Source of the DNA: Cytophagaceae bacterium
GTDB lineage: Bacteria; Bacteroidota; Bacteroidia; Cytophagales; Cyclobacteriaceae
DNA: 64,000 nucleotides
Reading direction: 5' to 3'
NCBI GenBank assembly: GCA_006969745.1
Contig: CP030886.1
Coordinates: 1 to 64,000, forward strand
Part shown: in pieces, positions 23,101-44,818 of the stretch
Layout: each line of letters opens with the position of its first letter
Numbering within the stretch: the stretch's first letter is position 1
Notes under the pieces: model-generated
Told to the model about the DNA's origin: nothing
Databases searched by the model: none
The model's input: only the letters and a program-made list of their open reading frames with translations
Program-made: the position numbers and the translations under genes

Positions 23101-24462
23101 ATGGCTCACATAAACGACACCATTACCGCACTTGCTACACCTCCGGGGCAAGGTGCCCTTGGCATCATTCGGGTTTCCGGAAGTCAAACCATACCCATTG
23201 TAAATGAGCTATTTAAAGGGAAAAACCTGACCAAGGTTGATTCCCATACTATTCACCTGGGAACGATCCGGAACGATCAGAATGAAATTATTGATGAGGT
23301 GCTGGTATCGATCTTCAAAGGCCCTCACTCCTACACCAAAGAAGATGTGATAGAGATATCCAGTCACGGCTCGCAATACATCCTGCAAAAGATTTTGAGT
23401 TTGCTTGTAAGTAAAGGTGCACGATTGGCAAAGCCCGGGGAGTTTACCCAAAAAGCATTTTTGAATGGACGCTTTGACTTGACACAAGCCGAGGCTGTTG
23501 CAGACTTGATCGCTTCAGAAAATGCAGGAATGCAACAAACAGCCATGAACCAAATGCGAGGTGGTTTTTCGGATGAGATCAAAAACCTAAGGGAACAACT
23601 GGTTCATTTCGCTTCGATGATTGAGCTAGAGCTAGACTTTGCAGAAGAAGATGTAGAGTTTGCCGATAGACAAGGACTGATTGACTTGATCAATAAGATA
23701 CAAACATTGATTCAGTCGCTTATCGCCAGCTTTGAATACGGTAACGTTTTGAAAAATGGAGTGCCGACTGTTATTGCAGGCAAGCCGAATGCAGGCAAGT
23801 CAACATTGCTTAATGCACTCTTAAATGAAGAAAAGGCCATCGTATCAGATGTAGCAGGCACCACCCGTGACTTCATTGAAGATCAGATCTACATTGACGG
23901 TATCTCATTCCGATTCATTGATACAGCAGGAATCCGTGAGACCGATGACAAAGTAGAAAGCATTGGGGTGCAACGCACACTGGAGAAGATGAAGCAGGCG
24001 GGGCTAGTGATCTATTTGTTTGATTTAGTCAATGAATCCATCGATTCGATTGAAGAGCAGCTGAAAGGGCTTCAGGCTTCTGACGTTCCCTATATACTTG
24101 TCGGCAATAAGGTAGATCAGGCAGACGCTTCTCTAAAAACCCGACTTTCAAAAGAAGATGCGGTCTTTATTTCGGCCAAAGAGAAAGACAACCTGGATAC
24201 CCTCAAGGAACGACTAAAGACAGTCGTGGACAAACCTGCGCAATCAAATGTAATTGTGACTAACACACGACACCTGGAAAGCCTGCAACAAACCGATGAT
24301 GCACTCAAAAGAGTGATCGAAGGCATCAACAACCAGATGAGCAACGATCTGGTCGCTCAGGACATCCGCTCGGCCCTCTTCCACCTGGGAGAGATTACTG
24401 GTGAGGTCACGACCGATGATTTGTTGGAGAATATATTTAGCAAGTTTTGTATTGGGAAGTGA
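23101..24462 (+). CDS. mnmE: tRNA modification GTPase MnmE
   Basis: 453 residues. N-terminal tetrahydrofolate-binding domain (DTITALATPPGQGALGIIRV), G domain with GKPNAGKSTLLNALL, DVAGTTRD, DTAGIRETDD and NKVD, and the C-terminal FCIGK motif carrying the conserved cysteine. With MnmG it installs cmnm5U/nm5U at the tRNA wobble position. The gene is complete, but its final 18 bp are the attachment site of the island that begins at the next base. The last ~42 codons recur as a diverged copy at 38689-38817. Confidence 0.96.
   Translation: MAHINDTITALATPPGQGALGIIRVSGSQTIPIVNELFKGKNLTKVDSHTIHLGTIRNDQNEIIDEVLVSIFKGPHSYTKEDVIEISSHGSQYILQKILSLLVSKGARLAKPGEFTQKAFLNGRFDLTQAEAVADLIASENAGMQQTAMNQMRGGFSDEIKNLREQLVHFASMIELELDFAEEDVEFADRQGLIDLINKIQTLIQSLIASFEYGNVLKNGVPTVIAGKPNAGKSTLLNALLNEEKAIVSDVAGTTRDFIEDQIYIDGISFRFIDTAGIRETDDKVESIGVQRTLEKMKQAGLVIYLFDLVNESIDSIEEQLKGLQASDVPYILVGNKVDQADASLKTRLSKEDAVFISAKEKDNLDTLKERLKTVVDKPAQSNVIVTNTRHLESLQQTDDALKRVIEGINNQMSNDLVAQDIRSALFHLGEITGEVTTDDLLENIFSKFCIGK
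24445..24462 (+). other. Left attachment site (attL) at the mnmE 3' end
   Basis: TTTTGTATTGGGAAGTGA encodes F-C-I-G-K-stop of mnmE. It matches the copy at 44801-44818 in 16 of 18 positions, and the copies at 38800-38817 (16/18) and 36069-36086 (13/18). The 3' end of mnmE/trmE is an established integration site for tyrosine-integrase islands such as SGI1, which supports the interpretation. Confidence 0.85.
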
Positions 24463-27831: not shown

Positions 27832-27999
27832 CTCACATTTATAAGTTATTTGTTAAATATACCACCAATAGAATACTCAAAATCCTACTTTGGTTTAGTG
27901 GCCACTTCACATTAGATCAATCTTGTATTATCCATCGTACGTATACAAGCTTTTACGAGCTTACCTTCGTATTGTTAATAACGGCTTTTAGATTTGCAA

Positions 28000-29124
28000 A
28001 TGAGTTCTAAAGGCATCAAAGTAAATCTTCGAACCAAGCAACTAAAGGATAAGCGACACTCCTACTACCTTCACTACTACAACCCTATAACTAGAAAAAG
28101 ACGCAAAGAATATCTTGGCCTTTACATCTACAATAAACCAAAAGATGAGTTCCAGAAAGAACACAATGAAGAGATTAAACGATTGGCAAATAGCATTTAT
28201 GCGAAGAGGGTATTAGCAATTCAGGAAGGTAAATTCGGATTCATTCCAAAAGAGAAATTAGATATTTCACTCCTATCCTATTTCGAAACGATCTTGGAGC
28301 AAAAAAAACGTTCGACTAGTGAATCGAATTATTCCAATTGGAAGTCGACATTCAAACATCTGAAGCATTTTACTAGAGATGATATTAAACTCATAGATGT
28401 AGATGAGGAATGGATGAATTCCTTTAGAGATTTCCTTCAAACTGAAAACCTAAACCGAGGTGTTAGAAAACTCTCTCAGAATGCAGCTTCCTCTTATTTC
28501 AACAAATTCAAGGCTGCAATGAATGAAGCCTTTAACAACAAATTGATTTTGGATAATCCTTCCACCAGAGTCAGATCCATCAAGCCCGGAGAAACAAAAA
28601 GAGAATTCCTTACAGAAGATGAGATCAAACTTCTCTTTAGAACAGATTGTAAGGACCCTAGAATCAAGAAAGTATTCCTCTTTGGGATTCTTACTGGATT
28701 AAGGTTTTCGGATGCTACACAGCTTCTATGGAGCGATCTTCAATACTCATCTGAATCAGGTTGGTTTATTCGCTTTCAACAGCAGAAAACCAAAGGCCAT
28801 GAAACCTTGCCAATCAATGATCAAGTGATCAACCTACTAGGAGAAAAAGGCCCAGATGAGGAGCGGATCTTTAAAGGTGTAAAGTACTCAGCACACAATA
28901 ACCACATTTTGCTATCCTGGGTCAAAGATGCAGGAATCAAAAAGCATATCACCTTCCATTCTTCCAGACATACTCATGCTTGTCTTTTGCTCGATAAAGG
29001 AATTGATATCTATACAGTGTCAAAGATGCTTGGTCATCGTGAGATTAAAACCACTTCCATCTACTTGAAGGTGATGGATAAGAACAAAGCTAAAGCTGCT
29101 CAAGCCCTTCCTTCTTTTTCTTAG
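28000..29124 (+). CDS. Tyrosine recombinase/integrase of the island
   Basis: 374 residues from the ATG at 28000 (a TTG two codons upstream is possible). N-terminal Arm/AP2-like DNA-binding region (SYYLHYYNPITRKRRKEYLGLY), a SAM-like core-binding domain (about 85-185), and the catalytic domain with R235 (TGLRFSD), Lys in QQQKTKG, H320/R323 (HSSRHTHA), H346 (LGHRE) and Y355 (SIYLKV). All catalytic residues are present, so it should be active. It is the only integrase in the island and the likely enzyme acting on the mnmE-type att sites. Unusually, it lies 3.5 kb inside rather than beside attL. Confidence 0.92.
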   Translation: MSSKGIKVNLRTKQLKDKRHSYYLHYYNPITRKRRKEYLGLYIYNKPKDEFQKEHNEEIKRLANSIYAKRVLAIQEGKFGFIPKEKLDISLLSYFETILEQKKRSTSESNYSNWKSTFKHLKHFTRDDIKLIDVDEEWMNSFRDFLQTENLNRGVRKLSQNAASSYFNKFKAAMNEAFNNKLILDNPSTRVRSIKPGETKREFLTEDEIKLLFRTDCKDPRIKKVFLFGILTGLRFSDATQLLWSDLQYSSESGWFIRFQQQKTKGHETLPINDQVINLLGEKGPDEERIFKGVKYSAHNNHILLSWVKDAGIKKHITFHSSRHTHACLLLDKGIDIYTVSKMLGHREIKTTSIYLKVMDKNKAKAAQALPSFS

Positions 29125-29166
29125 TATTTAGTCTTTTCCTTATATATTCGGAATTCTATACACCAA

Positions 29167-31553: not shown

Positions 31554-31766
31554 CTAAACACCCTTGGTTAATTCTGAAATCGAAATATCAAAGACAGAGG
31601 CTATCTTCTTAATATTCTTTAAAGCAGGATTTCGCTCACCTCTCTCTACTCTACCAACATAGGTTCGATCAAAACCACAGAGTTGAGCCATCTTCTCTTG
31701 ACTCCAACCTTTTTTGGTTCGTAACTCACGAACTCTATTACCAAACTTTGAAAGGATATCTTCCAC
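31554..31766 (-). CDS. XRE-family controller (C-protein-like) regulator
   Basis: 70 residues with GTG start: a single HTH_3 domain, VRELRTKKGWSQEKMAQLCGF then YVGRVERGERNPALKN. Length and single-domain form match C proteins that time restriction-modification expression. A restriction-methylase set lies 1-3 kb away. It is divergent from the 31835 gene, with repeated TAAGTC elements in the 68-bp gap. Confidence 0.75.
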   Translation of the reverse strand: MEDILSKFGNRVRELRTKKGWSQEKMAQLCGFDRTYVGRVERGERNPALKNIKKIASVFDISISELTKGV

Positions 31767-31777
31767 CTATCAAAGAA

Positions 31778-31818
31778 GCCAATAAGTCTCACTTGATTCA
31801 ACCGCCAATAAGTCACAT
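31778..31818. promoter_or_regulatory. Candidate operator of the XRE controller
   Basis: Direct repeat GCCAATAAGTC at 31778-31788 and 31804-31814, 26 bp apart, with a local inverted pair AAGT-N3-ACTT at 31784-31794. It sits 12 bp upstream of the controller GTG and before the divergent gene, where C-boxes usually lie. The TAAGTC half-site recurs at the second XRE gene (39226-39231). Confidence 0.5.
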
Positions 31819-31834
31819 TTATTAAATTAGTGAT

Positions 31835-32212
31835 ATGAAACCAGTGTTCATCATTCTATTGCTAATTGGCTATAACCCTATTCAGGAAGGCAAACTACTA
31901 TTCACTACAAATCATCTGGATGTTAAAAGGCTCTCACAGCCAGAAGAGAAATACACAACTATTGACATTAGTTGGGTTTGGGATTACTACAGCACTACTA
32001 CCCTACTTATCAAACAACCAGATAATGATGAGCCAAACACAGTTTATGAAATACAAAGTCTGATTCAAGATGGTCAGACATATTACCTGACAGCCAAAAG
32101 AACCTTTAGTCAGGAATACTGTGAAATCATATTAAACCGCACAGCCAAATCGGTTGAGATTAAATCCCTTAGTCCTGTTCAAGGAATCAATTTAAAGTAC
32201 TATCATAAATGA
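31835..32212 (+). CDS. Small exported protein of unknown function (first of a pair)
   Basis: 125 residues. The first ~17 residues (MKPVFIILLLIGYNP) could be a short signal peptide or anchor. The rest is beta-rich with no recognised domain. It overlaps the next gene by 4 bp (ATGA), so the two form a translationally coupled pair inserted between the controller and the endonuclease candidate. Confidence 0.5.
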   Translation: MKPVFIILLLIGYNPIQEGKLLFTTNHLDVKRLSQPEEKYTTIDISWVWDYYSTTTLLIKQPDNDEPNTVYEIQSLIQDGQTYYLTAKRTFSQEYCEIILNRTAKSVEIKSLSPVQGINLKYYHK

Positions 32213-32628
32213 TTTTCAAAATCATCCTGTTATTTCAATTCCTAGCCATTTATTCATCTTCGAATAGAGATTCTTTCTTATATCTGGAAAGTATCACTAG
32301 AAATCATTTAAACGAACTCCAGCTAGAAGTTTACAAATTCAAGAGCAACAACTATATCAAATCTAAAGGCGATGAACATTTGGGGTCATTTAAAGAAGCC
32401 TCTTACCATACATTCAATTTTAACAATAACACCGTCACATTTCGCTCAAGATTCACAGAGTGGAAAGACATCACAATCAAGTTCAAATCCTACTACAAGG
32501 AATACTCTGACTATATCCTAGTATGCGAACATGAATTCATCAAGGAGATATGGTTCAATCCTGAATATGAATCAATAGAGCATGAGTATCATTCAGGACT
32601 TCACTACACATTTACAGAGATTAATTAA
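32209..32628 (+). CDS. Small exported protein of unknown function (second of a pair)
   Basis: 139 residues with a hydrophobic N-terminus (MIFKIILLFQFLAIYSSS) that looks like a signal peptide. The remainder is charged and beta-rich. Coupled to the preceding gene by a 4-bp overlap. Function unknown. Confidence 0.5.
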   Translation: MIFKIILLFQFLAIYSSSNRDSFLYLESITRNHLNELQLEVYKFKSNNYIKSKGDEHLGSFKEASYHTFNFNNNTVTFRSRFTEWKDITIKFKSYYKEYSDYILVCEHEFIKEIWFNPEYESIEHEYHSGLHYTFTEIN

Positions 32629-32707
32629 CTATTCAATGCACTATTAGTTTAATGCATTATTGTGAAGAATACCGCTATACTATAACTTTCCAACAAACAA
32701 GAAGGTT

Positions 32708-33412
32708 ATGGCTACACTTGGTAAAATGCCAAATATCATACTCGACCAAAATGAGCTAAATAATTTTGGAAATCAATGGACCGCTAACAATGGTGAACTG
32801 AAAAGATCACCACCATATTCTTCTTTGGAGTTAGGTTCTTTCTTTGACGCAGCCGTTGGTAAAGCATTAAGTGTTTTACTTGGCAACATTCCAATTATAA
32901 AACCTTCTTCAACAAGCTTGTTGCCGGTCAATAGTGATGCAGTTGAAGTAGGCCCTGTAAGAATCATAGGTGGTATTAGACCTCAAAATTTTGATGTTGG
33001 GTATCGGCCGGATGGAGTTAGATTCATATTTGATAGTAAAACACTTAATGAAGAAAAGAGTGTGAGAAAAAACTATCAAAATATGATTAATGATCTAGGA
33101 ACCGAAGCAACAACAGTACATTCTAGATTTCCATACGCTATTGTTGCTTTCTTGGTAGCTATTCCTGAGCCCTGTTTAAATTCTCCACAAAAAGAGGCGA
33201 TTACAAGTACCTTAGAAAGACTATCTCAAAGGACAAGTCCAATTGATAGTTCACACAAAGCAGAAGCAATAAGCTTAGTAATATGGCGGCCTAATGATGG
33301 CTCAATTAATCCAAATTGGCCGCCTCCAAGTTCCCCTTTAAGAATAGAATCTTTTAGCGATCAAATTAATTATTCTTATCATGAAAGATACAAGGGTATG
33401 GATCCTCACTAA
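32708..33412 (+). CDS. Putative PD-(D/E)xK restriction endonuclease
   Basis: 234 residues. The segment RPDGVRFIFDSK gives P101-D102, D109 and K111, a compact PD-x6-DxK arrangement typical of PD-(D/E)xK nucleases. It lies 44 bp upstream of a DNA methyltransferase and downstream of a C-protein-like gene, the usual make-up of a Type II restriction-modification system. I recognise no named endonuclease family, so the call rests on the motif and context. Confidence 0.6.
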   Translation: MATLGKMPNIILDQNELNNFGNQWTANNGELKRSPPYSSLELGSFFDAAVGKALSVLLGNIPIIKPSSTSLLPVNSDAVEVGPVRIIGGIRPQNFDVGYRPDGVRFIFDSKTLNEEKSVRKNYQNMINDLGTEATTVHSRFPYAIVAFLVAIPEPCLNSPQKEAITSTLERLSQRTSPIDSSHKAEAISLVIWRPNDGSINPNWPPPSSPLRIESFSDQINYSYHERYKGMDPH

Positions 33413-33456
33413 GACACCTTAATTTGTTTATTTAGCGAGATAAGAAAGTTAGTGAA

Positions 33457-35076
33457 TTGAATAAGATTACAAATAAACTACGTGGAGGCTATTACACTCC
33501 AAAACAGATAACAGACTTTATAACAAGATGGACAATTGATAAACCAGGCAATGTTTTAGAGCCAAGCTGTGGAGATGGGAATTTTATTGAAAGTGTAGTT
33601 CAAAGATTTGAATCTTTAAAATGTGATGTAAAAGGACAACTAACCGCTGTTGAACTAATCAAAGAAGAAATTGATAAAGCCAAAAAAAGATTTAAGGATA
33701 GCTTATCTCCACGTAATTTCATAAACACTGACTTCTTTCACTATCTAAAGAAACATCACTATGAAAAACCAACTTTTTCAAAGCCCTTTGATTTTATTGT
33801 AGGTAATCCCCCTTTCATTAGATATCAAGATTTCCCAGAAGAACATAGGGAAATTGCTTTTGAGATGATGAATGATTTAGGATTGCCTCACAATAGGCTT
33901 ACAAACATCTGGGTTCCTTTCTTGATATTATGCTCTAATCTTCTTTCAAGCCATGGTAGAATGGGATTGGTAATTCCTGCAGAGCTATTTCAGGTAAACT
34001 ATTCTTCATCTGCAAGAAAGTTTCTTAGTGAGTATTTTGACCGTGTATCAATTGTAACATTTAAAAAGCTTGTCTTCAAAAGTATCCAGCAAGAGGTGGT
34101 AATACTTCTATGTGAAAGGAAAACAAGACAAGAAAAAGGCATAAGAGTTGTTGAACTAGAAAACTTAGAAGATCTAGAAACACTTTCAATTGATAGCTTC
34201 AATGACATTCCAGTAAAAGAGCTAGACCACTCCCAAGAAAAGTGGATTAAGTATTTTCTCGATCAAGACGAAATTGAGTTCTTGAGGAAAATAAAGAATA
34301 GTAAAAACTATGAAAAATTAGAAGAATATGCTTCTGTAGACGTTGGCATTGTTACAGGTAGGAACGAATTTTTTATGATGAACCATTCGCACGTCAAAAA
34401 GTGGGGTGTCGGTAAATCTATCATACCTGTAATTGGCAAATCTGATCAACTTAAAGGAATCACTCTAAGTGAACAGAGATATAAAGTCTTGAGTGAGTCA
34501 GACAAAAAAGTGTTTATGTTCTACCCTAGCATACCTCCTAATAAGAATGAAAAAAAATACATACTTTATGGCGAAGAAAATGGTTTTAACCTTGGTTACA
34601 AATGTAGAATAAGGAAAAATTGGTTTGTAGTACCATCTATTTCAATTCCAGATGCATTTGCGTTAAGACAAGTCAATCACTATCCTAAAATTGTTCTTAA
34701 TGATACAGGAGCTTCTTCTACAGATACTATACACAGACTTAATTTCCATGTTAATGAATCTAAGCCAAAAAAAGTTGCCTGCTTTATAAACTCTCTAACC
34801 TTTGCGTTTTCAGAAATAACAGGAAGAAGTTATGGAGGTGGTGTAATGACTTTTGAACCAACAGAGGTGGAAGAATTACCTTTTGTGTTTTCTGAAAAAG
34901 TTAATCCTTATGAAATTGACGAGTTAATTCAAAATAACGAAGTTGAAAAAGCATTAGACCTGAATGACAAGATATTATTTCTTGATACAGGTAAATTCTC
35001 TCAATCAGAGGTTCTCAAGTTGAGAAATATTTGGAAGAAGTTGAGAGATCGGAGACTATACAGAAAAAAGAGGTAA
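33457..35076 (+). CDS. DNA (adenine-N6-type) methyltransferase, TaqI/Eco57I-like
   Basis: 539 residues, TTG start. Motif X/I region GGYYTPKQITDFITRW and LEPSCGDGNF (SAM binding, about residues 36-45), then the catalytic motif IV VGNPPFIRY with N117-P-P-F120. This gamma-type order (I before IV) with NPPF indicates N6-adenine methylation. The C-terminal ~250 residues would be the target-recognition domain. It presumably protects host DNA against the adjacent endonuclease candidate. Confidence 0.85.
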   Translation: MNKITNKLRGGYYTPKQITDFITRWTIDKPGNVLEPSCGDGNFIESVVQRFESLKCDVKGQLTAVELIKEEIDKAKKRFKDSLSPRNFINTDFFHYLKKHHYEKPTFSKPFDFIVGNPPFIRYQDFPEEHREIAFEMMNDLGLPHNRLTNIWVPFLILCSNLLSSHGRMGLVIPAELFQVNYSSSARKFLSEYFDRVSIVTFKKLVFKSIQQEVVILLCERKTRQEKGIRVVELENLEDLETLSIDSFNDIPVKELDHSQEKWIKYFLDQDEIEFLRKIKNSKNYEKLEEYASVDVGIVTGRNEFFMMNHSHVKKWGVGKSIIPVIGKSDQLKGITLSEQRYKVLSESDKKVFMFYPSIPPNKNEKKYILYGEENGFNLGYKCRIRKNWFVVPSISIPDAFALRQVNHYPKIVLNDTGASSTDTIHRLNFHVNESKPKKVACFINSLTFAFSEITGRSYGGGVMTFEPTEVEELPFVFSEKVNPYEIDELIQNNEVEKALDLNDKILFLDTGKFSQSEVLKLRNIWKKLRDRRLYRKKR

Positions 35077-35129
35077 CAATGTATTGAGCTTATTTATGGC
35101 AAATAACTCAAATTGAATACCTTTATTTC

Positions 35130-36002
35130 ATGGGTAAAAAGCTTACTGTATTTCTAATTGACGGGGCAGATAATGGACCAAGAACTATCGAAATAGGAAA
35201 TTGGTCAGGCAAAGCGATTAATACTCCTAGAAGTCAACTTACCAAACTTATCGAACGAGATGAATACGATAAGCCAGGGGTATATGTACTCAAAGCAATT
35301 CCTCAGAAGGATATTTACTCTGAAAGAATATACATTGGAGAAGCTGAAAATCTGAAAACTCGATTGAAACAACACTTGAAAGACAGTGACAAAGATTTTG
35401 GTGAATGTCTAATCTTTATTAGTAAAGATGAGCTTCTAACCAAATCACACGTCAAGTACATCGAATCACGACTAATTGAATTAACAAAAGTAGCCAAGAA
35501 TGCAGAACTAGATAATTCAACATCCCCCTCCAAACCATCACTATCGGAGGCAGATATTTCTGATATGGAATACTTCATTAATCAAATCAAATTGATTCTT
35601 CCAACCGCAGGTTACTCATTTTTGATACCTACCACATCACAGTCTATAGAGAGTCAAAAACCTGAAGATGAAAAATCAATAGTGGAAACCTCATTTGATA
35701 TAAAGACCCAATCACTTTCTGCAACAATGGTTGAGACTGAAGATGGTTTTGTAGTTATAAGAGGATCACAAGCTAATCTTAATACCTCCAAATCAATCGC
35801 AAAAGGATGGTTACAATTAAGAGAAAAGCTTCTTGACAATGGGAATTTAGTTAGAAATGGAGATCACCTTCAATTCACAGAGAATGTAGTTTTCTCAAGT
35901 CCTAGTGCAGCATCTTCCGTTGTATTGGGAAGACAGTCTGCGGGTCCGCTAGAGTGGATTAGATTTGATGGAAAGAGCTTAAAGGACCTGGAATCTGAAT
36001 AA
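35130..36002 (+). CDS. GIY-YIG nuclease with C-terminal DUF4357
   Basis: 290 residues. GIY-YIG domain at about 45-125: PGVYVLKA, RIYIGEAENLKTRLKQH (the two tyrosines and arginine), with the metal-binding glutamate in KYIESRLIEL. The C-terminal ~80 residues match DUF4357 (VIRGSQANLNTSKSI ... SSVVLGRQSAGPLEW). This architecture is common beside restriction-modification genes, but its role is not established. It lies 53 bp after the methyltransferase and is the last gene of cassette 1. Confidence 0.82.
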   Translation: MGKKLTVFLIDGADNGPRTIEIGNWSGKAINTPRSQLTKLIERDEYDKPGVYVLKAIPQKDIYSERIYIGEAENLKTRLKQHLKDSDKDFGECLIFISKDELLTKSHVKYIESRLIELTKVAKNAELDNSTSPSKPSLSEADISDMEYFINQIKLILPTAGYSFLIPTTSQSIESQKPEDEKSIVETSFDIKTQSLSATMVETEDGFVVIRGSQANLNTSKSIAKGWLQLREKLLDNGNLVRNGDHLQFTENVVFSSPSAASSVVLGRQSAGPLEWIRFDGKSLKDLESE

Positions 36003-36068
36003 ATGCCATATTATCCTTTCCAATTTGTTCAGTAAAATCACCATGTGTTTTCTTTGAATGCTATTCCT

Positions 36069-36086
36069 AGCTATATTGGGAAGTAA
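36069..36086 (+). other. Internal att-like site between cassette 1 and the retron
   Basis: AGCTATATTGGGAAGTAA matches the copy at 44801-44818 in 15 of 18 positions; the last 13 are identical and the similarity runs on (AAGTAACAAACA versus AAGTAATAAACA). It is in non-coding DNA between the GIY-YIG gene and the retron. It is the weakest of the four copies, but its placement exactly between gene modules supports it. Confidence 0.65.
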
Positions 36087-36214
36087 CAAACAAGGAGTTG
36101 TGCGTAATAGTATGAAGGAAATATGAATAGAACGGGTTCTATAACGACCGTTTTATTGGCAAATTCTAGTATTTTCTCTAAACATGAACCTCATATAATT
36201 ATCTACAATAATAA

Positions 36215-37039
36215 ATGAATGCTCAAGACTCATACTCAAGGTTATTTACAATTTTTGATTCAAAGAATTGGCTTAAAAATACATTTAGTGATGACGCCCT
36301 TGAAAGCTTGGTTAATATTATTGACAACCTTAAAAGTGAGGAACAGGCTCTAATTCTTGATCTTTTACAAAGATATAATTGGATTAAATTCAACGAACTT
36401 GAATCTGGTTTAATAAAAACTGTGAAGAACATTGAATCAATCCTATCAAAGCAGAAAAAGATCTACGTAGGTCCTGTAACCAAAAAGAGTGATTCTGGTG
36501 AAATGAAAAGTGGTTTCGGTTTCACTTACATGATTAAATCTCATTCAAGTAGATCATCAAAAATTAATAGTCAAAATACAAGGTTTATTAGCCAATATGA
36601 ATCCTTAATAATAAAATCAAATGAAGCTATTGTGATTACAGATGATTACATTGGGAGCGGTAAAACTGTTACTGACTCTATTGACGAATTAACTCGTGAT
36701 TTAAACATTTCTAATGATCAAATCTACATAGCTGTTTTTGCTGCCCAAAAAAGTGCACTTCAAACCTTAAAAGAAAAGAAGATAAAGACTTATTGTGTTC
36801 TACAACTTGGGAAAGGAATAAGTGACTTTTACAAAAAAGAAGCTATTTCTGAGAAATTACAGCTCATGAAAAAGATTGAAAAGCTATTGCCAAGATTAAA
36901 AACTGATTACAGTCTTGGATTTAGACAGACAGAAGCTCTCATTACTTTTACAGAAAGAACACCAAACAACACATTTCCAATCTTTTGGTTAAAACATGAA
37001 GTCAATGGAAAAGAGTACACAGCCCCATTTCCCAGATAA
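36215..37039 (+). CDS. Phosphoribosyltransferase-like retron-associated protein
   Basis: 274 residues. A PRPP-binding motif is clear: IVITDDYIGSGKTVTDS at about residues 139-155 (two aspartates then the G-S-G-K-T loop), the signature of type I phosphoribosyltransferases. The rest does not match a salvage enzyme. It is followed by a winged-helix gene and a reverse transcriptase, an arrangement described for one retron class (type III in the published retron scheme, from memory). It is probably the effector of the retron. Confidence 0.75.
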   Translation: MNAQDSYSRLFTIFDSKNWLKNTFSDDALESLVNIIDNLKSEEQALILDLLQRYNWIKFNELESGLIKTVKNIESILSKQKKIYVGPVTKKSDSGEMKSGFGFTYMIKSHSSRSSKINSQNTRFISQYESLIIKSNEAIVITDDYIGSGKTVTDSIDELTRDLNISNDQIYIAVFAAQKSALQTLKEKKIKTYCVLQLGKGISDFYKKEAISEKLQLMKKIEKLLPRLKTDYSLGFRQTEALITFTERTPNNTFPIFWLKHEVNGKEYTAPFPR

Positions 37040-37352
37040 ACATTCGCTTTTTCTTATAATCGATGTTGTAATAAAGAATGCATCAATTAGAAAAGTTAGA
37101 AGGCATGGACTTAATTATAACCAAATATTTATGCTTACTAAATATGCTTTGCAAAATGGTTACATCAAAAATAAAAGGGGAAAGTTGGTAATTACTAGAA
37201 AAGGAAAGAAATATCACAGTTCAAACCAAGAGGAATTTAGGATCAAGAATAAAGATGAATGGATCGATTTTGATAAGGAATCAAAAGTTGCTAAAATTAG
37301 TAAAACCGCTATATTTGTTCCAAAGCAGGATGAATTAACATTCCTCCTTTAA
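36996..37352 (+). CDS. Winged-helix protein of the retron operon
   Basis: 118 residues; an internal ATG (MEKSTQ, 37005) is an alternative start. It overlaps the PRTase-like gene by 30-40 bp. The segment LNYNQIFMLTKYALQNGYIK followed by KRGKLVITRKGKKY has the helix-helix-wing pattern of a winged helix. DNA-binding partners of this kind occur with retron effectors and may contact the msDNA or regulate the operon. Role inferred. Confidence 0.65.
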   Translation: MKSMEKSTQPHFPDKHSLFLIIDVVIKNASIRKVRRHGLNYNQIFMLTKYALQNGYIKNKRGKLVITRKGKKYHSSNQEEFRIKNKDEWIDFDKESKVAKISKTAIFVPKQDELTFLL

Positions 37353-37526
37353 AGGTACAGGAACAGAGAGTCTTTGTTCCTTGAGTGAATGTTCTTTCTA
37401 GCACCCCGCTTTTTAACCCAACCTTCGACAAAGTCGACCCTAAAGGGATCGGTTGAATTAAAAAGCGGTGTTCACTAATTTGAGTGAGGGAGAAACAAAC
37501 TCCCCACTCAATTAACGACCTCTCAA
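37353..37526 (+). ncRNA. Candidate retron msr-msd RNA
   Basis: 174 bp directly upstream of the reverse transcriptase. Visible structure: hairpin GGAACA/TGTTCC (37360-37380); an 11-bp stem 37406-37416 / 37458-37468 enclosing CAACC/GGTTG and two small hairpins (TCGAC/GTCGA and CCC/GGG); and a 12-bp stem at 37480-37511 with one bulged A. TTGAGTG occurs at 37381-37387 and 37480-37486, and both can pair with CACTCAA (37505-37511), giving a possible a1/a2 switch. The exact msr/msd limits and branching G are not determined. Confidence 0.6.
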
Positions 37527-38564
37527 GTGAATTTTGAACCCTATAAAATCTTCTTTACTAATGAGGCAATCAATGCTGGGTATTCGAAAGAGAACATTGA
37601 TCTATGCTTAAAATATGCAAAGCCAATTATCGAGAATGGATTGCCAGTAATTTATAATACAACGCACCTTTCGGGACTTGTTGGATATTCGAAAGAATAT
37701 ATTAAGAAAGCCGTCTATAACACCCCTTACTATTATCGCAGTTTTAAAATTAAAAAGAGAAATGGCAGCTTAAGAGAAATTTCAGAACCACTACCTAGCT
37801 TAAAAGAAATCCAATTATGGATCCTAAATGAAATTCTCTACAAAGTGAAAGTAAGTGTCTTTGCAAAAGCGTATAGGCCCGATATTGGCTTAATAGAGAA
37901 CATCAAGTACCATACAAATCAACCCAAAGTGTTTTCACTCGACATAGAAAATTTCTACCCTTCAATTAGTCGGGAAGCGATCCAAAAGTTATTTGAAAGC
38001 TGGGGATACTCTGAAATACTTTCAAACTTACTCTCAAAGCTTTGTACCCTAAATGAATCATTACCTCAAGGAGCACCAACAAGTCCATATCTTTCAAATC
38101 TATTTTTCAGCCCTCTCGATATCGAAATTTCAGAATATTGCAAAAGAAGGAAAATAATGTACACTAGATACGCTGATGATATGACCTTTTCTGGAGATTT
38201 TGACCATCAAGAATTAAATGACTGGATCAAAGAAAAGTTATCAGAAAAAGAACTTTCACTAAATGAAAATAAGACACAGCTTATGCTCCCTAATAATCGT
38301 CAAGTTGTAACTGGTATAGTAGTTAATGAGAAAACTCAGGTTCCTATTGAAAAAAGGAAACGATTAAGACAAACCATGTTTTATATCAAAAAGTTTGGAT
38401 TCATAGATCATATGAAACATGAAAAAATCAACAAAGGAAACTATTTAGAACACCTAATCGGAAAGGTGAATTTTGTATTACAGATGAATCCTAGTGATAG
38501 CGAGTTTTTAGAATATAAAAAAATACTTAATTCAATCAAGACCGAGTCAAAAAATCAATCTTGA
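37527..38564 (+). CDS. Retron-type reverse transcriptase
   Basis: 345 residues, GTG start. Motif A SLDIENFYPSI (D139), motif B LPQGAPTSPYLSNL, the catalytic YADD box at 215-218 (RYADDMTFSG), and the retron-specific VTG motif (VVTGIVVN) are all present. NIKYH replaces the usual NAxxH of the X region. No fused effector domain. It should copy part of the upstream RNA into msDNA. Together with the PRTase-like and winged-helix genes it forms a self-contained retron of about 2.4 kb. Confidence 0.9.
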   Translation: MNFEPYKIFFTNEAINAGYSKENIDLCLKYAKPIIENGLPVIYNTTHLSGLVGYSKEYIKKAVYNTPYYYRSFKIKKRNGSLREISEPLPSLKEIQLWILNEILYKVKVSVFAKAYRPDIGLIENIKYHTNQPKVFSLDIENFYPSISREAIQKLFESWGYSEILSNLLSKLCTLNESLPQGAPTSPYLSNLFFSPLDIEISEYCKRRKIMYTRYADDMTFSGDFDHQELNDWIKEKLSEKELSLNENKTQLMLPNNRQVVTGIVVNEKTQVPIEKRKRLRQTMFYIKKFGFIDHMKHEKINKGNYLEHLIGKVNFVLQMNPSDSEFLEYKKILNSIKTESKNQS

Positions 38565-38673
38565 CGGACTTATTGTTTGAATTCTACAGCTTCATTAGAT
38601 CAGTTTCTTTCCCGTTTTCATCTCTAAACTATCAAATAGCTGTCCTTTTTTCTCGTTTAGCCCCTATCCTTTC

Positions 38674-38817
38674 GAAGCAATCAACATGCAGATGAGTAAT
38701 GATCTTGTAGCCCAGGACATTCGCTCTGCCCTCTTCCATTTGGGAGAGATCACTGGTGAAGTGACTACTGATGACTTACTAGAGAATATCTTTAGTAAGT
38801 TTTGTATCGGGAAGTAA
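38674..38817 (+). pseudogene. mnmE: Detached 3' end of a diverged mnmE, with an internal att site at 38800-38817
   Basis: The 129 bp at 38689-38817 encode 42 residues identical to the MnmE C-terminus ([12 protein letters not shown] to FCIGK). By my count they differ from the intact gene at 22 nucleotides including the stop (TAA versus TGA), all synonymous. Weaker similarity extends upstream to 38674. The terminal 18 bp TTTTGTATCGGGAAGTAA is the third att copy. The fragment comes from a functional mnmE of another lineage, carried in or displaced by integration. Confidence 0.9.
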
Positions 38818-38978
38818 TTCAAGTCCCTCTGTATCTCCTATCCTATTCCATCCTCAAGATCATCCACTAGAGAGACTCCTAGATATCTCATTTTGAAAGT
38901 TGGATGACTCGTTGGAATGAAGAGCGAGTAAATTGGCTTAACTTTTGGTAGTGATATATAATACTAATAACTCTAATC

Positions 38979-39197
38979 ATGATGATGGAAATTAGGAAAG
39001 CACGCCTCAATAAAATCGAAGAAGAATCTCTTAAGATTGTTACCCAGAATCAGCTTGCGGTTAAGATTGGCAAGGATGCAGACTACATATCCAAGCTTGA
39101 AAGAGGAAAAAGAACACCATCACTCAGAACACTACAGGAAATCTGTAACGAGCTAGGGGTTAAAATGAATTATTTATTTTTCATAATTGGTATATGA
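38979..39197 (+). CDS. XRE-family regulator of cassette 3
   Basis: 72 residues; the HTH_3 domain covers most of it (QNQLAVKIGKDADYISKLERG, TPSLRTLQEICNELG). Like the cassette 1 controller it is a single-domain protein of C-protein size. It is the first gene after the internal att site and precedes the four-gene operon in the same direction, with a palindrome between them, so it probably times expression of the downstream methyltransferase operon. The 414-bp stretch before it otherwise holds only the mnmE fragment. Confidence 0.78.
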   Translation: MMMEIRKARLNKIEEESLKIVTQNQLAVKIGKDADYISKLERGKRTPSLRTLQEICNELGVKMNYLFFIIGI

Positions 39198-39209
39198 ATT
39201 GAGTAAAAG

Positions 39210-39232
39210 TGACTTAAACTTAAAATAAGTCA
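39210..39232. promoter_or_regulatory. Palindromic candidate operator before the HIT operon
   Basis: Inverted repeat TGACTTA (39210-39216) - N9 - TAAGTCA (39226-39232), between the XRE gene and the operon start. The TAAGTC half-site is also in the two repeats before the other XRE gene of the island, so both regulators may bind related sites. Confidence 0.55.
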
Positions 39233-39329
39233 ACCAAACATACTGGATAATCCAATTTTTTGAAGCATTTAAAAGACAGTTAAGTGGAAATGATGTTTAA
39301 TTGTTATAATTACCTGTTTCTTGATAGGT

Positions 39330-39932
39330 ATGAATAGCCAACAGACAGAATGTGAACTTTGCAATGCAATAAAAGACTCAAGTAGTCTTAATCCTAAAAT
39401 TTGGAATACTCCTCTTTACGAGACAGATAGTTTTATAATCTTGCCTTCTATTGGTCCGCTTGTGTCTGGTCACGTTTTAATTTGCAGCAAAAATCATTAT
39501 CAGAGCCTTAGTTTCATGAAGAAGGAACATGTTTTAGAACTGAAGTCCTTATTGCATAAACTAGAAAAAAGGGACTTTATGAAAGATTGTCTGATATCTG
39601 AACATGGCTCTAGCTGGGATCAAAAAGGCGGAGCTTGCGTAATCCACACTCACCTGCATATTATTCCAAGTTTTAGCAGAGACGTTGATATTTTAGAAGG
39701 GCATTTACCTGTTTTTGATGTTGATGAATTAGATCAAGTTCTTAATATAGATGATCCTTACCTACTGAACTTTAATCTAAATAACAAGATCAAAGTATAT
39801 GAAGCCTATAATATTCCAAGTCAACAAATTAGAATGGCTCTTTGCAAAAAATATGGATTTAAGAGGCAAGATTGGAGGCAAGATGAAAAGTTAGATTTAA
39901 TAAAAAAGTCTATTGATTTATGGAAAAATTAA
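39330..39932 (+). CDS. HIT-family protein
   Basis: 200 residues from the ATG at 39330. The HIT signature HTHLHIIPS (H106, H108, H110) is preceded by GPLVSGHVLICSKNHYQSL, typical of the fold. HIT proteins hydrolyse or transfer nucleoside monophosphates. The C-terminal ~70 residues extend beyond a minimal HIT domain. The gene abuts the ThiL-like gene with no gap and is the first gene of the operon. A nucleotide-linked substrate is likely, but its identity is unknown. Confidence 0.75.
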   Translation: MNSQQTECELCNAIKDSSSLNPKIWNTPLYETDSFIILPSIGPLVSGHVLICSKNHYQSLSFMKKEHVLELKSLLHKLEKRDFMKDCLISEHGSSWDQKGGACVIHTHLHIIPSFSRDVDILEGHLPVFDVDELDQVLNIDDPYLLNFNLNNKIKVYEAYNIPSQQIRMALCKKYGFKRQDWRQDEKLDLIKKSIDLWKN

Positions 39933-40961
39933 ATGAATAGACTAGATCCTGATAAAGCCCCTAAGCTCATAAGAGAGTTGTTTTCAAACTCAGCTATTGA
40001 CCCATCAATCAAAACCAATATTGATGATGATGATTGTGCAGTGTTTAAAATTGGCAAGCTTTATTATGGAATTACCACTGACTTTTTGAATTCGAAAACA
40101 ATTGCTGAAGAGTTGGATATAGGTAGTTTTCGTGAATTTGGCAGACTTGTGGCTGCAGCAAACCTCTCTGACTTGATTGGTTCCGGATTTAAGCCCTATG
40201 CATTTCTTTTATCAGTAATGCTTAAAAAAGGTAGCTCAGATTCTGATTTTAAAGAATTAATGAAGGGAGTTAAAGAAGTGCTGGACACATTTGAAATTTC
40301 ATTGATTGGTGGTGATACAAAGCTAGGTAAAGAATTTTCTGTAGCTGGATTTGGAATTGGTATTTCAGAATACAAACCATTTCTGAAAAAGAATGCCAAA
40401 GAAGGTGATCTCATTTTCACTACAGGGGAATTAGGTTCAACATGTGCTGTAGCGATTGGATATAATGCGATTTTTGATAAGAACTGGAGAAGATGGGCAA
40501 CTCAGGTTGTTGTAGATCCTTCATTACCATTTAAAAAAACGAGTCATTTAGCCAAAAAGAATATTTGTAATTGCGGGACTGATATTAGCGATGGCCTAGG
40601 CCGTGATCTAAATGACCTTTGCAGATCTAGTAATGTTGGAGCAATTGTAGATGTAGATAAAATTCCGATTAATTCTCAAGTGCATTTAGTTTCAAGAAAA
40701 TTGGATATAGAGCCATGGTCATTTGCATTCGGCATTGGCGGTGATTTTGAATCAATTGTATGTGTATCACCAAAACATAAAGACACATTAGTCTCCCTTG
40801 GATTCACTTTAATAGGAGAAATCACTAAAGAAAAAGATATGCTTATAAATAACTATGGAAAAATATCTGCTATGCCAATTAAAGGACATAATGACTTATT
40901 CAAAAAATCATTCTCTGGAGAGGCATCTCACCTTTTAAAAGAAATTAAGAATAATGATTAA
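39933..40961 (+). CDS. AIR-synthase-fold kinase-like protein related to ThiL
   Basis: 342 residues. N-terminal ATP/Mg region DDDDCAVFKIGKLYYGITTDF, then GGDTKLGKEF, and the C-terminal domain motif GTDISDGLGRDL, all characteristic of ThiL (thiamine-monophosphate kinase) and relatives such as HypE and SelD. In a methyltransferase operon a role in thiamine synthesis is unlikely, so the fold has probably been recruited to phosphorylate or activate another small molecule. It follows the HIT gene directly and overlaps the next gene by 8 bp. Confidence 0.72.
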   Translation: MNRLDPDKAPKLIRELFSNSAIDPSIKTNIDDDDCAVFKIGKLYYGITTDFLNSKTIAEELDIGSFREFGRLVAAANLSDLIGSGFKPYAFLLSVMLKKGSSDSDFKELMKGVKEVLDTFEISLIGGDTKLGKEFSVAGFGIGISEYKPFLKKNAKEGDLIFTTGELGSTCAVAIGYNAIFDKNWRRWATQVVVDPSLPFKKTSHLAKKNICNCGTDISDGLGRDLNDLCRSSNVGAIVDVDKIPINSQVHLVSRKLDIEPWSFAFGIGGDFESIVCVSPKHKDTLVSLGFTLIGEITKEKDMLINNYGKISAMPIKGHNDLFKKSFSGEASHLLKEIKNND

Positions 40962-42174
40962 TAACTCAGATATTAACCAAGTTCTCACTAGACTTAGTAG
41001 GCAAATCCAAGACCAAGTAACCAATGGTCCTCAAACTGAATTTCTTGTAGCACGAAACATTCCTAATATTTTCTGCTGTGGTCAATTCTTCAATGAGAGT
41101 GCCTCTAAGCAACGTGGCTTACATGGTACGGCAGGTGCAATTAGAATAATTGGTGATAATCCAGAAGTTGATCCCGAAAGAGTACCTGAACTAATAAACG
41201 GACTAATAGCATATATAAAAAATCGATTTCAAATTGAATTTGAGATTCGTGATTATGATGCTGGAAATCTTAAAAGTGAAGATGTTAATACAATAAAAAT
41301 TGCAGAAAAGTTAACTGCCCTAAACTGTATAAGCCATGATAGCCCTGAAAAAAATGAGCTTCGTACATCAATAATTAATTTACTCGTCGAAAAGTTAGAA
41401 GAGAATGGATGGGGATATGATTTGACAAATAATAACCCGAAAGTTCTACCGACAATTTTTGTATTAAAAGCATTGCATGGTAATGTAAGTGTTCAAACCT
41501 TAAGAAGACCACTTGATTGGTTAATTGATGAATTAAAAAGGACAAATCCAGATTCTGAGATTTCCGAGTTTTACATAAAAGTACTTGCTTTGGACCTGTT
41601 TACATTCTATTGGGAAGATGAGGTGACCCATAAGGAACTACGCAAGATATTTAATAGTATATGGAAACAAACGAAGGAATTGTTTGGCCAAAATATCGAA
41701 CAGAATATTGAATATGAGATTAACTCTAACCACTCATACATAAGAATACCATGGCAATTATACATTATTGCATTATCTGCTAAACTAAATATCTGGACAT
41801 ATAGCGGGCAAACGATCCAAAGAAAATTGAAAGGAATTAAGCTTAGCGTCTTAAATGGTGGTTTTAAGTATGCACACAGTGGGCCTGGACTTTCAGTAAG
41901 AACAAATGCTATTTTGTATGAGAATCTCCAAAAGGTGAAAAAACAGCAGTCCAATGATAGCTTAATTAAGTTTTTATTTTTTCTTAATAAGCTAACAAGC
42001 ATCGTGACTGGAAAATGGTCAAAACTGACTATAAGATTACTTGCACTCATTTTTATACTATTGGCTCTTTTGTCTAATTTTATTGAATTGGGATTTGGTG
42101 ACAGCATTTTTAAAGACACAAAAAATGATATAATCGCTGGACTCATTTTTTCTCTCTCTTTCAATAGGAGATAA
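40954..42174 (+). CDS. Helical protein with terpenoid-cyclase-like repeat and C-terminal membrane anchor
   Basis: 406 residues. QRGLHGTAGAIRIIG near residue 55 and NGWGYDLTNNNPKVLPTIFVL near 151 recall the alpha/alpha-toroid repeats of prenyltransferase/terpene-cyclase-like proteins, but the catalytic DxDD was not found. One membrane helix lies at about 357-380 (LLALIFILLALLSNFIEL) with a short tail, so the protein is probably membrane-tethered. It could be a sensor or effector of the operon. The fold call is tentative; the anchor and operon position are clear. Confidence 0.55.
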   Translation: MINNSDINQVLTRLSRQIQDQVTNGPQTEFLVARNIPNIFCCGQFFNESASKQRGLHGTAGAIRIIGDNPEVDPERVPELINGLIAYIKNRFQIEFEIRDYDAGNLKSEDVNTIKIAEKLTALNCISHDSPEKNELRTSIINLLVEKLEENGWGYDLTNNNPKVLPTIFVLKALHGNVSVQTLRRPLDWLIDELKRTNPDSEISEFYIKVLALDLFTFYWEDEVTHKELRKIFNSIWKQTKELFGQNIEQNIEYEINSNHSYIRIPWQLYIIALSAKLNIWTYSGQTIQRKLKGIKLSVLNGGFKYAHSGPGLSVRTNAILYENLQKVKKQQSNDSLIKFLFFLNKLTSIVTGKWSKLTIRLLALIFILLALLSNFIELGFGDSIFKDTKNDIIAGLIFSLSFNRR

Positions 42175-42180
42175 TAGTAA

Positions 42181-44649
42181 ATGCTCGAATTCAATGACAT
42201 GTTATATGGTAAGATTTTCTTACCGGAGTGGATTTACCCCTTCTTAAAGTCTCCTGAGATTGCAAGATTGAGAGGTATAAGACTTTCGAACATTGATTCA
42301 ATTCAATTTAAGGATTTTAGTAGCCCAAATAGATTTGATCACTCTCTTGGAGTAATTCATTTAGGGATAATTGCTTCTTCAGTAAGAGGACTTGATCAAA
42401 GAGAAACAATTCACCTGCTTTTGGCATGCCTATACCATGATGTCGCAACTCCTCCATTCGCACATTCTCTTGAGTTTGTTTTACCTAATTTTTCTCATGA
42501 AAATGAGGCTAGAATTATATTAGATAATGTAAAAGAAGGGTCAGATTTAAACTCATCCAATATTTCAATTTACAAGTCAGAGACGGTTCAGTTCAATCAT
42601 CTTGTAGATTCGTTACAAAAAGAATTCAAGATTAAGCTTGATGCAAGTAGAATACTAGATATAATAACTGGAGATGATGCAGAATTGGGCTTTTTAGTTA
42701 ATGGCCTAGTTGATTTGGATAATGCTGACAACGTAACAAGAGCTTCATTACACCTTGGTATTAGGATTGATCCTGAAGTACCAATTGGAATAGCTAGATA
42801 TTTAGGGAGTTTAAATTCAATACCGTTAAGCATATCTGAAATAAAAAATGATTATGTTCGAAAATGGTATGGGTACAGAGAATTGATGTATGACTCTTTT
42901 AAGGATGCCAATGATGAAGAAAATGGCAGAACCTCTTTATTGTATCATATCCTAAGGAGATGTCTCAATAGTGGGATAGGCACAGATTCAATAATTAGGA
43001 ATACGGAAAGTGAATTGCTATACATGATTGAAAATAGAGAACTAAATGAAAGCTCTAAATATAGATTTAGCCTAAATGAGCTTTCTAGGAGATATCAACT
43101 ATTAGAAAAGCCACAGCTCTTTTTAGAGATTACTTTTAATACGAGTGAAGTAATTAAGGAATTAAAAAATCCTGAATTTAGCAATTGGTTGGATTCAAAA
43201 TTGGTTGGAGATAAAGCCGAATTGTTTTGCTTTGTGTCATTTAAGAAGAATCTCGAAAAAAAGAAAATCGAAAATTGCAAATTGCAAGTGTTTCTATTGG
43301 AAGGAAAAATTACTCTTTTCAATATTCCTTCTTATCTGAAATCTTTGCTGGAAAGGCGAGAATTAGAATACCAAAGTTTATCTCCAAGTCAATTAAGATC
43401 GGAGCTAGAACAAGCTTTCAAAATAGAAATTAATGATCTAGTATCTAAAAAGCCATGGAAAGAGACAAAACTGTGTCAGAATGAAGACGTAGTTTCAAAT
43501 CTTCACCGAATAGGGAACTGGGCCTTTAAATTATCAAGGAATGAAAGCTTACATTCGTATCCAGCAACCTTCGTTCACAACATTCCAGCTAATCTTCTAA
43601 GCAGCTTAAATGTTAGCAACGAAGATGTCTTAGATTGCTTCGGAGGAACTGGACAGACAGGAATTGAGGCAATCAAATTCAGATGCAGACCAATCATATG
43701 TGATGCAAATCCATTTGCATCTCTAATCTCAAAAGTGCGTCTTTCTTTTTACTCTAAAGAAGTGATAAGTGAAATTGATAATCTCAATATCAGCTCTATA
43801 GAAAAATCAATTGAATTCAAAACACACTTAGATTATGAAGAAGTTCTAAAATGGTATCATCCCAAGACATTTAGTCAACTTAGCGCAATTAAAACTTATA
43901 TACAGAGCATTGAAAACCAGACTTTGAAAGACTTCTATAATGTGTGTTTCTCTGGTATACTTCAATCATGCACAGAGAGGAAGGGTAAACATTTTGCTTA
44001 TTTTGCTGATAATACTCCTCTCCCTAAAGGAGTTGACAGACCTAATTATCAAAATGCGCTTAACCTATTTGAAAACAAAGTCAGAAGAAACTTAAGAATC
44101 CTTAGCTCTCAACAAATCAAAATAGCTAAGTTGGGGATTAATTGTGAAGAAGCTCTGAATGCTTCAATTGTAAGAAATATTCCTATTCAAACACTTAATA
44201 ATGAAGAGATTGGAATCGATAAGAATAGTGTTGCTGCAGTTATAACATCTCCTCCTTATATAGGGATGGTTGATTATACTCTTGGCATGAGGCTTTCATA
44301 TTTTTGGTTTAAGGAATATGATATGGATAACGATTTTAAGTATGAGATAGGTCCACGGAGAGGGAGATTTAAACCAAACCAAAGTGGAGAAGAATATTTT
44401 GCAATGATGAAAGTATTTGCTTCTAAGATGTCTACATTAATTAAGGATGGTGGCTATCTATGCACCGTTGTAGGAAAACCCTCCTCAAGTAAGTTTTCAA
44501 ACCTTAATATATTTGAAGATGTTAACGAGTTAATGGGTAATTATAATTTTGAAAAAATTTGGCATAAAAAAAGACCTATTAACTGGCAAAATCACCCATT
44601 TAAATCTATCAACGAGGAATTAATATCTGTTTATAAATTGCATATGTAA
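42181..44649 (+). CDS. HD phosphohydrolase - DNA methyltransferase fusion
   Basis: 822 residues. The N-terminal HD domain is of the dGTPase/SAMHD1 type: RFDHSLGVIHL (H54), CLYHDVATPPFAHS (H86, D87) and a later DLDNADNVTRA aspartate near 180, so the metal site looks complete. The C-terminal half is a SAM methyltransferase: DCFGGTGQTGIEA (motif I, ~484) and ITSPPYIGM (motif IV, SPPY at ~690), the form of N4-cytosine or N6-adenine amino-methylases. About 200 residues between the motifs may recognise DNA. I do not know this fusion as a named family. Last gene of the operon, 6 bp after the membrane-anchored gene. Confidence 0.75.
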   Translation: MLEFNDMLYGKIFLPEWIYPFLKSPEIARLRGIRLSNIDSIQFKDFSSPNRFDHSLGVIHLGIIASSVRGLDQRETIHLLLACLYHDVATPPFAHSLEFVLPNFSHENEARIILDNVKEGSDLNSSNISIYKSETVQFNHLVDSLQKEFKIKLDASRILDIITGDDAELGFLVNGLVDLDNADNVTRASLHLGIRIDPEVPIGIARYLGSLNSIPLSISEIKNDYVRKWYGYRELMYDSFKDANDEENGRTSLLYHILRRCLNSGIGTDSIIRNTESELLYMIENRELNESSKYRFSLNELSRRYQLLEKPQLFLEITFNTSEVIKELKNPEFSNWLDSKLVGDKAELFCFVSFKKNLEKKKIENCKLQVFLLEGKITLFNIPSYLKSLLERRELEYQSLSPSQLRSELEQAFKIEINDLVSKKPWKETKLCQNEDVVSNLHRIGNWAFKLSRNESLHSYPATFVHNIPANLLSSLNVSNEDVLDCFGGTGQTGIEAIKFRCRPIICDANPFASLISKVRLSFYSKEVISEIDNLNISSIEKSIEFKTHLDYEEVLKWYHPKTFSQLSAIKTYIQSIENQTLKDFYNVCFSGILQSCTERKGKHFAYFADNTPLPKGVDRPNYQNALNLFENKVRRNLRILSSQQIKIAKLGINCEEALNASIVRNIPIQTLNNEEIGIDKNSVAAVITSPPYIGMVDYTLGMRLSYFWFKEYDMDNDFKYEIGPRRGRFKPNQSGEEYFAMMKVFASKMSTLIKDGGYLCTVVGKPSSSKFSNLNIFEDVNELMGNYNFEKIWHKKRPINWQNHPFKSINEELISVYKLHM

Positions 44650-44800
44650 TTAAGGCTTATTATCCTATTTACATTTATTGAGTTTACATGTCTTTATATT
44701 TTAGCACGAGTATAGAATTATTTGTCTTTCTTTTGTAATTCGATTTATCAAACTATTTCATAATGAACTAATAATTAGATAGTTAAATTATTTTATTACA

Positions 44801-44818
44801 TTCTGTATTGGGAAGTAA
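44801..44818 (+). other. Right attachment site (attR) of the island
   Basis: TTCTGTATTGGGAAGTAA, again reading F-C-I-G-K-stop although there is no mnmE gene here. It marks the right boundary: AT-rich island DNA lies before it, and after it come a terminator and chromosomal genes with ordinary codon use. The 244-bp gap 44650-44893 contains nothing else recognisable. Confidence 0.82.

Follow-up and report, generated by a model that had tools for sequence, protein, structure and literature searches.

Among the antiviral enzymes of humans, SAMHD1 holds a central place. The protein described here, encoded in the window (the whole stretch of 64,000 nucleotides of contig CP030886.1 that was analysed), has an HD half that shares its whole fold and metal ligands with the SAMHD1/COG1078-type proteins of human, Enterococcus (EF1143) and Rhizophagus, but differs from them in the absence of the HDxGH histidine, in the family signature DxDNxDNVxR and in its DNA methyltransferase (MTase) partner. 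The anti-phage dGTPases (PADLOC dGTPase, TIGR01353) are also HD hydrolases in a defence context; however, the locus studied here is a multi-gene system with an MTase and a membrane protein, and its scores lie far under the dGTPase cut-off. On the other side of the fusion, TTHA0409, M.PvuII, M.RsrI and CcrM share the DPFxGxG and TSPPY motifs, whereas here the motif order is reversed and an HD partner or fusion takes the place of the restriction enzyme. CBASS, Pycsar and the type VI-B Csx27 systems are similar in joining soluble nucleotide-acting enzymes to a swappable membrane protein, but in contrast to CBASS and Pycsar the core is an HD protein plus an MTase, and no nucleotide cyclase family was matched among the cassette genes of the window. 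As for the insertion site, SGI1-type genomic islands are inserted at the 3' end of trmE/mnmE and are flanked by short repeats (PMC8409611). The elements of the window share the site and the short repeats with these islands of gammaproteobacteria, but they occur in another host lineage, use another integrase and carry defence genes instead of antibiotic resistance.

The fusion is encoded on the forward strand at positions 42181..44649, in an open reading frame of 822 aa that starts with ATG and has no internal stop. Residues 1-420 (42181..43440) constitute the SAMHD1-fold HD half, as defined by alignment and fold match, and residues 432-822 (43474..44646) the DNA methyltransferase half, recognized by Pfam, PADLOC and profile comparison. 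Both domains scored over the Pfam gathering cut-off (HD, residues 51-123, E 4e-5; N6_N4_Mtase, residues 685-818, E 7.5e-11), and PADLOC type II MTase models covered residues 434-781. Thus, the intact reading frame and the domain matches bear out the preliminary description, which had proposed a single 822-residue polypeptide holding an HD domain and a methyltransferase. The structure was predicted from alignment A6, containing fused plus HD proteins, because in alignments A2, A4 and A5 the mixture of fused, HD-only and MTase-only rows scrambled the middle of the protein. The resulting AlphaFold model of the fusion had a mean pLDDT of 83.6, with most of the HD part above 90.

The first relatives obtained by tblastn, one on plasmid pA of R. 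etli and the other in a genome of the window's phylum, were split: HD and MTase are encoded there by separate genes that overlap and are ordered as in the fusion. A scan with the HD alignment found 61 loci among 84,980 genomes and 3 more in viral contigs, counts that are lower bounds and biased because the scan patterns came from three sequences. Taking together the scan loci, the window and the earlier tblastn loci, the HD gene was directly followed by the MTase in 57 of 69 loci (5 fused and 52 split, by simple gene calling); among the other 12, four ran into a contig end and the remainder had weaker or different HD proteins. The 52 split pairs are found in bacteria and archaea, always as adjacent and usually as overlapping genes, HD then MTase. 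The five fused proteins come from the window, Sedimentisphaerales, Armatimonadota, Planctomycetota and Bacteroidales, at least three phyla, and form one clade in the HD tree (support 100/100). Split relatives are present in most lineages, as could be expected if a sequencing error had joined two genes or if the protein were a decaying passenger, but the four further fused orthologues, with 36-38% identity, spread over three phyla and with all active sites intact, make such an origin barely conceivable. They also show that homologues are not always split, whereas invariably split homologues were what the preliminary description had named as fatal to its proposal. A missed stop or a frameshift is in practice excluded, since the four fused orthologues and the 52 split pairs exist with the same gene order. 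The 822-aa protein is therefore a genuine natural fusion and not an artefact.

Another aspect to mention is the C-terminus of the split HD proteins. Of 56 split HD proteins, 15 end in QLxLF-like peptides, which resemble bacterial sliding-clamp binding motifs, and among 488 other proteins 6 do so (Fisher p 8e-12). This enrichment is to be taken as a lead, since the search pattern was defined with examples already at hand and the proteins share ancestry. Such C-terminal peptides can be seen in the split HD proteins of loci L022, L036, L046 and L065, among others. In the fused proteins, no clamp motif was found at the equivalent place.

Regarding the HD half, the fold search matched the catalytic core of SAMHD1 whole (Z 27.7, 333 residues aligned, model residues 1-422), and Foldseek agreed with this match. 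When the HD-family profile was compared with the PDB, the SAMHD1 of Rhizophagus (2e-30), EF1143 (1e-27) and human SAMHD1 (~1e-23) were retrieved. The metal site that had been proposed, H54, H86-D87 and an aspartate near residue 180, proved invariant in an alignment of 57 rows, mostly paired and fused proteins, and D180 is the exact residue; the codons lie at 42340-42342, 42436-42441 and 42718-42720, respectively. Along with these ligands, R51, H95 (42463-42465), D178, N181, D183, N184, R187, W229, R233 and Y237 are invariant in the same alignment. A SAMHD1/COG1078-like fold with the H, HD and D metal ligands is thus present. By alignment, H54, H86-D87 and D180 correspond to H167, H206-D207 and D311 of SAMHD1, whose H215, D218 and H233 have equivalents here too, D218 as E98.

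The family departs from the known enzymes in the HDxGH histidine, which is typical of dGTPases and SAMHD1 and occupies the position of SAMHD1 H210. This histidine is absent here (HDVAT) and in 57 of 57 alignment rows, where position 90 is T, I, S, N, C or A. In addition, at the positions that match K312, Y315 and D319 of SAMHD1 in the alignment, the residues are N, N and A. The best score against any NCBIfam dGTPase family was 14.5 bits, with every cut-off above 150; TIGR01353 gave 12.5 bits in the fusion protein, in a range of 12.5-20 bits against a curated cut-off of 152, and the PADLOC dGTPase model (E 0.002) was far under its cut-off. A plain dGTPase is ruled out by these family scores and the lost histidine. 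Consequently, of the label "dGTPase/SAMHD1-type" given previously, the SAMHD1 fold with its intact metal site stands and membership in the dGTPase family does not, and the same holds for the interpretation as a whole, in which a SAMHD1-type HD domain fused to an MTase in a defence context is retained. The site for metal catalysis is kept, but dNTP triphosphohydrolysis cannot be assumed from the sequence, given the lost histidine and the changes at the K312, Y315 and D319 positions, and the hydrolase activity may be different or weak.

Since the HD half filled the fold-search list, the MTase half was compared by sequence profile, which matched TTHA0409 and other N4-cytosine and N6-adenine DNA methyltransferases in the PDB with E-values down to 8.9e-20. 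The two motifs noticed in the preliminary description, FGGTG and TSPPY, were both recovered by family alignment, the former within motif I, DCFGGTG (residues 485-491, 43633-43653), and the latter as motif IV (residues 689-693, 44245-44259). Motif I and a catalytic (S/N/D)PP(Y/F), the marks of SPPY/DPPY amino-methyltransferases, are therefore present, with motif I ahead of SPPY, opposite to the solved enzymes that were matched. G489, W558, D610, S690, P691, Y693, D698, Y699, E722, R726, R729, R798 and E813 are invariant in the family, which also has motifs of its own, EIGxRxxR and DN. Conservation spans the whole MTase, unlike the variable recognition parts of restriction MTases. The target base is probably N4-cytosine or N6-adenine; the SPPY motif and the N4 enzymes among the best matches favour the former, although they are not decisive.

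In the window, the fusion is the last of five genes on the forward strand. The first one past the left attachment site encodes a Cro/C1-type HTH protein, a probable regulator (38979..39197), followed by a HIT-domain protein with intact HTHLH triad (39321..39932, with TTG at 39321 or ATG at 39330 as start) and by a ThiL-like kinase of the AIR-synthase superfamily (39933..40961), below the TIGR01379 thiL cut-off. The HIT triad is missing in 4 of 8 HIT relatives. The fourth gene (40954..42174) encodes a 406-aa protein with a predicted alpha/alpha toroid structure (pLDDT 83.6) and, by structure and hydropathy, C-terminal hydrophobic helices forming a membrane hairpin; its gene lies directly upstream of the HD-MTase at all five fused loci. 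The nearest folds, with weak scores, were terpene-cyclase-like enzymes and C3d. A thioester protein, suggested by the CGQF motif and the C3d-like fold, was discarded because the relatives of the toroid carry WGQF. No further member of the window's toroid protein was found in 395 genomes of the phylum, plasmids and viral contigs. No nuclease family was matched among the five genes in Pfam, PADLOC and NCBIfam, nor was a known toxin domain, a small toxin or an antitoxin seen in this cassette.

The insertion site of the unit is the gene at 23101-24462 which, from reading its translation, is mnmE. Its intact 3' end contains the attachment core (24445..24462) that forms the left boundary of a neighbouring element. 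A 145-bp copy of the mnmE end at about 38672..38817, with 86% identity to the mnmE end of the sister genome G428, delimits the 6-kb unit on the left, and a third core, a 17-bp exact match at about 44801..44818 and 152 bases beyond the HD-MTase stop codon, delimits it on the right; all three are on the forward strand. Allowing up to 3 mismatches, three core matches were found in the window against 0.39 expected. Because copies of the mnmE end bound the interval, 38818-44800 holds exactly the HTH, HIT, ThiL-like, toroid and HD-MTase genes. The neighbouring element (24463-38817) carries a tyrosine integrase (27994..29124, forward strand), a G2P-like replication protein, an Eco57I-like MTase, a GIY-YIG/DUF4357 protein and a type III-A retron. 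GC content is 0.33-0.36 at about 24-46 kb and 0.37-0.44 outside. In the sister species G428, the flanking genes are 0.9 kb apart and the HD-MTase and both elements are absent; since that spacer stays between the flanking genes, the site is small and not perfectly empty. Direct repeats of the target-gene end, an integrase and absence in a relative, all features of a mobile island, were thus found, and the HD-MTase unit is a complete five-gene mobile cassette inserted at mnmE. In the region 23101-46351 as a whole, mobile elements are thus arranged in tandem at the 3' end of mnmE, the second unit being without its own integrase.

The surroundings of the unit include defence genes. The type III-A retron (36215-38564) is complete by PADLOC proteins (PRTase, 1.7e-72; winged helix, 2.3e-23; reverse transcriptase, 2.7e-150), and at 33457-36002 the Eco57I-like MTase is followed by the GIY-YIG/DUF4357 protein, which matches the PADLOC candidate PDC-S14; this pair is likely of the restriction-modification type. 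At other HD-MTase loci, the neighbours include proteins recognized by models of type I restriction and of MADS. Location in defence islands is suggestive of a defence role, not proof of it. A PAPS-reductase-like gene, DndC-like by eye, was observed upstream of the fused type A system of Armatimonadota (L027:955-2274). Furthermore, on a Sinorhizobium plasmid, near a Shedu gene, a cluster encodes radical SAM, exonuclease, AAA ATPase, PIN, XRE and QueC-like proteins and another HD family (L025:2625-9667), possibly a related nucleotide-type system.

Clustering of neighbour proteins, together with Pfam and NCBIfam matches, revealed at least six interchangeable cassettes around the conserved HD-methyltransferase core, all of them contributing enzymes that act on nucleotides or small molecules. 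Type A, present in the window and the other fused loci, consists of HIT, ThiL-like kinase and alpha/alpha-toroid membrane protein; the HIT gene was unrecovered in two fused loci, and related sets appear in two split loci. In type A', HIT and the toroid membrane protein are accompanied by a second SPPY MTase. Type B (22 loci in the tree) has a flavoprotein and a guanylate-kinase/DCD protein, the latter with a membrane segment at its C-terminus, and in many cases a small membrane protein as well; its DCD domain keeps a strict ILSNGPQxDPGF, and since the deaminase glutamate is absent, nucleotide binding rather than deamination is suggested. Type C combines B12-radical SAM and DUF4062-NACHT proteins, sometimes with a membrane protein weakly similar to Csx27 of type VI-B CRISPR. 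Type D carries a small SAM methyltransferase, a dNMP-kinase-like P-loop protein and a polytopic membrane protein; phages and E. coli yielded no close copies of the type D pair. Type E has a membrane protein and a carbamoyltransferase-ASCH protein, and type F a QueC-like PP-loop ATPase, a membrane protein and a second SPPY MTase, to which L044 adds a CMP-kinase-like gene. In two loci a TrmO-like protein lies by a second SPPY MTase on the opposite strand, adjoining type F systems (L059:9353-11175 and L066:9426-11285), and in L082:3974-9416 type B remnants (flavoprotein and kinase/DCD) on the minus strand adjoin a type D HD-MTase system.

According to hydropathy and one predicted structure, membrane proteins are present in types A, A', B, D, E and F and in part of C. 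Membrane segments were predicted by hydropathy in 21 of 24 members of family f2, 10/10 of f3, 7/7 of f10, 4/4 of f16, 3/3 of f24, 3/3 of f20, 4/5 of f12 and 3/5 of f11, compared with a background of 73/342. Seven changes, the fewest possible, suffice to account for the cassette types on the HD tree, compared with a mean of 35.2 after shuffling, and archaea are intermixed with bacteria in types B and C. Given this agreement with the HD tree and the mixture of the two domains of life, core and cassette have been transferred together between lineages.

We propose, with a probability of roughly 0.4, that the window's unit is one version of a widespread anti-phage system with a constant core of SAMHD1-fold hydrolase and DNA MTase and with a membrane effector. 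The MTase would mark or read DNA, and since the C-terminus of many split HD proteins resembles a clamp-binding motif, it would likely do so close to the replication fork. An abnormal state of DNA or nucleotides would then alter the nucleotide hydrolysis catalysed by the HD half, the cassette enzymes (here HIT and ThiL-like) would produce, activate or remove a signal or toxin derived from nucleotides, and growth arrest would be executed by the membrane protein. A membrane effector is argued for because the nucleotide-type chemistry varies among cassettes while the membrane protein recurs, and phage defence is the role that we infer from the location in islands and from the partners of NACHT and Csx27-like type. 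The main alternative is hypermodification of DNA or nucleotides, in which the cassette would make a modified nucleotide or base, the HD protein would remove the competing or modified dNTP, much as DatZ removes a competing dNTP in Z-genome phages, and the MTase would perform one step, the modified DNA being protective. Nucleotide kinases, DCD-like, B12-radical SAM, carbamoyltransferase-ASCH and QueC-like PP-loop proteins and flavoproteins are the enzyme types to be expected from such a pathway, and an MTase conserved throughout suits a constant target. It explains the enzymes better than the defence model and the membrane proteins worse: a membrane protein in nearly every cassette and the NACHT protein are left aside, the type B DCD domain has no deaminase glutamate, and the HIT/ThiL/toroid set of the window shows no obvious base chemistry. 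For these reasons we consider it rather unlikely.

The model of the preliminary description, in which infection would lead the HD half to drain dNTPs, as anti-phage dGTPases do, and self DNA marked by the MTase would restrain it, draws on the SAMHD1 fold, the intact metal site and an MTase fused or adjacent in 57 loci; the scores far below the dGTPase cut-offs, the histidine lost in all members, the changed dNTP-contact positions and the conserved cassettes and membrane proteins that it does not explain make it less probable still. Maintenance of the element, or addiction-like competition between elements, would agree with the att-like repeats that exactly delimit the cassette, with its place in a tandem mobile array and with its own HTH regulator. 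Nevertheless, the same core stands beside restriction and MADS-like genes at other loci and no small toxin or antitoxin was seen in the cassette, so that we give this explanation little credit. Even less can be given to a restriction-modification-like system in which host DNA would be shielded by the MTase and the HD half would act as a metal-dependent nuclease like that of Cas3: an HD protein beside a DNA MTase with intact catalytic motifs, and clamp-like C-termini suggesting action on DNA, would fit, but the nearest relatives belong to the SAMHD1/dNTPase branch of HD proteins and not to Cas3, the MTase does not vary as target-recognition parts do, and the cassettes and membrane proteins would be superfluous. 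The anti-phage reading with a membrane effector is thus the one that we prefer, probably as a mobile system that connects the state of DNA with the processing of nucleotides and with action at the membrane, its function and substrate being read from the domains and their company. More generally, the loci may represent a mobile class of bacterial and archaeal immune systems, in which an HD plus MTase core would read the state of DNA or replication and drive swappable cassettes of nucleotide chemistry and membrane effectors, a proposal to which we assign slightly less than even odds.

No named-system model in PADLOC 2023, Pfam or NCBIfam (June 2026) matched the HD, toroid or cassette proteins, the resemblances in the catalogues being a generic MTase, HTH, a weak dGTPase, Csx27 and PDC-M51A, and no description of the HD-MTase pair was found in the open-access literature. 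On these sources, the family is provisionally undescribed. All its folds are already known; the novelty lies in the architecture, an unchanging pair of HD and MTase joined by exchangeable cassettes, since membership in the dGTPase family and in the catalogued systems failed. The unit is directly testable, as it is 6 kb, self-contained and mobile, and the six cassette types offer natural comparisons. If a DNA-modification pathway were at work instead, several new DNA chemistries would be revealed. If the defence reading is true, a SAMHD1 fold coupled to DNA methylation and to swappable effectors would constitute a new immune logic, possibly with a new nucleotide signal or modified nucleotide.
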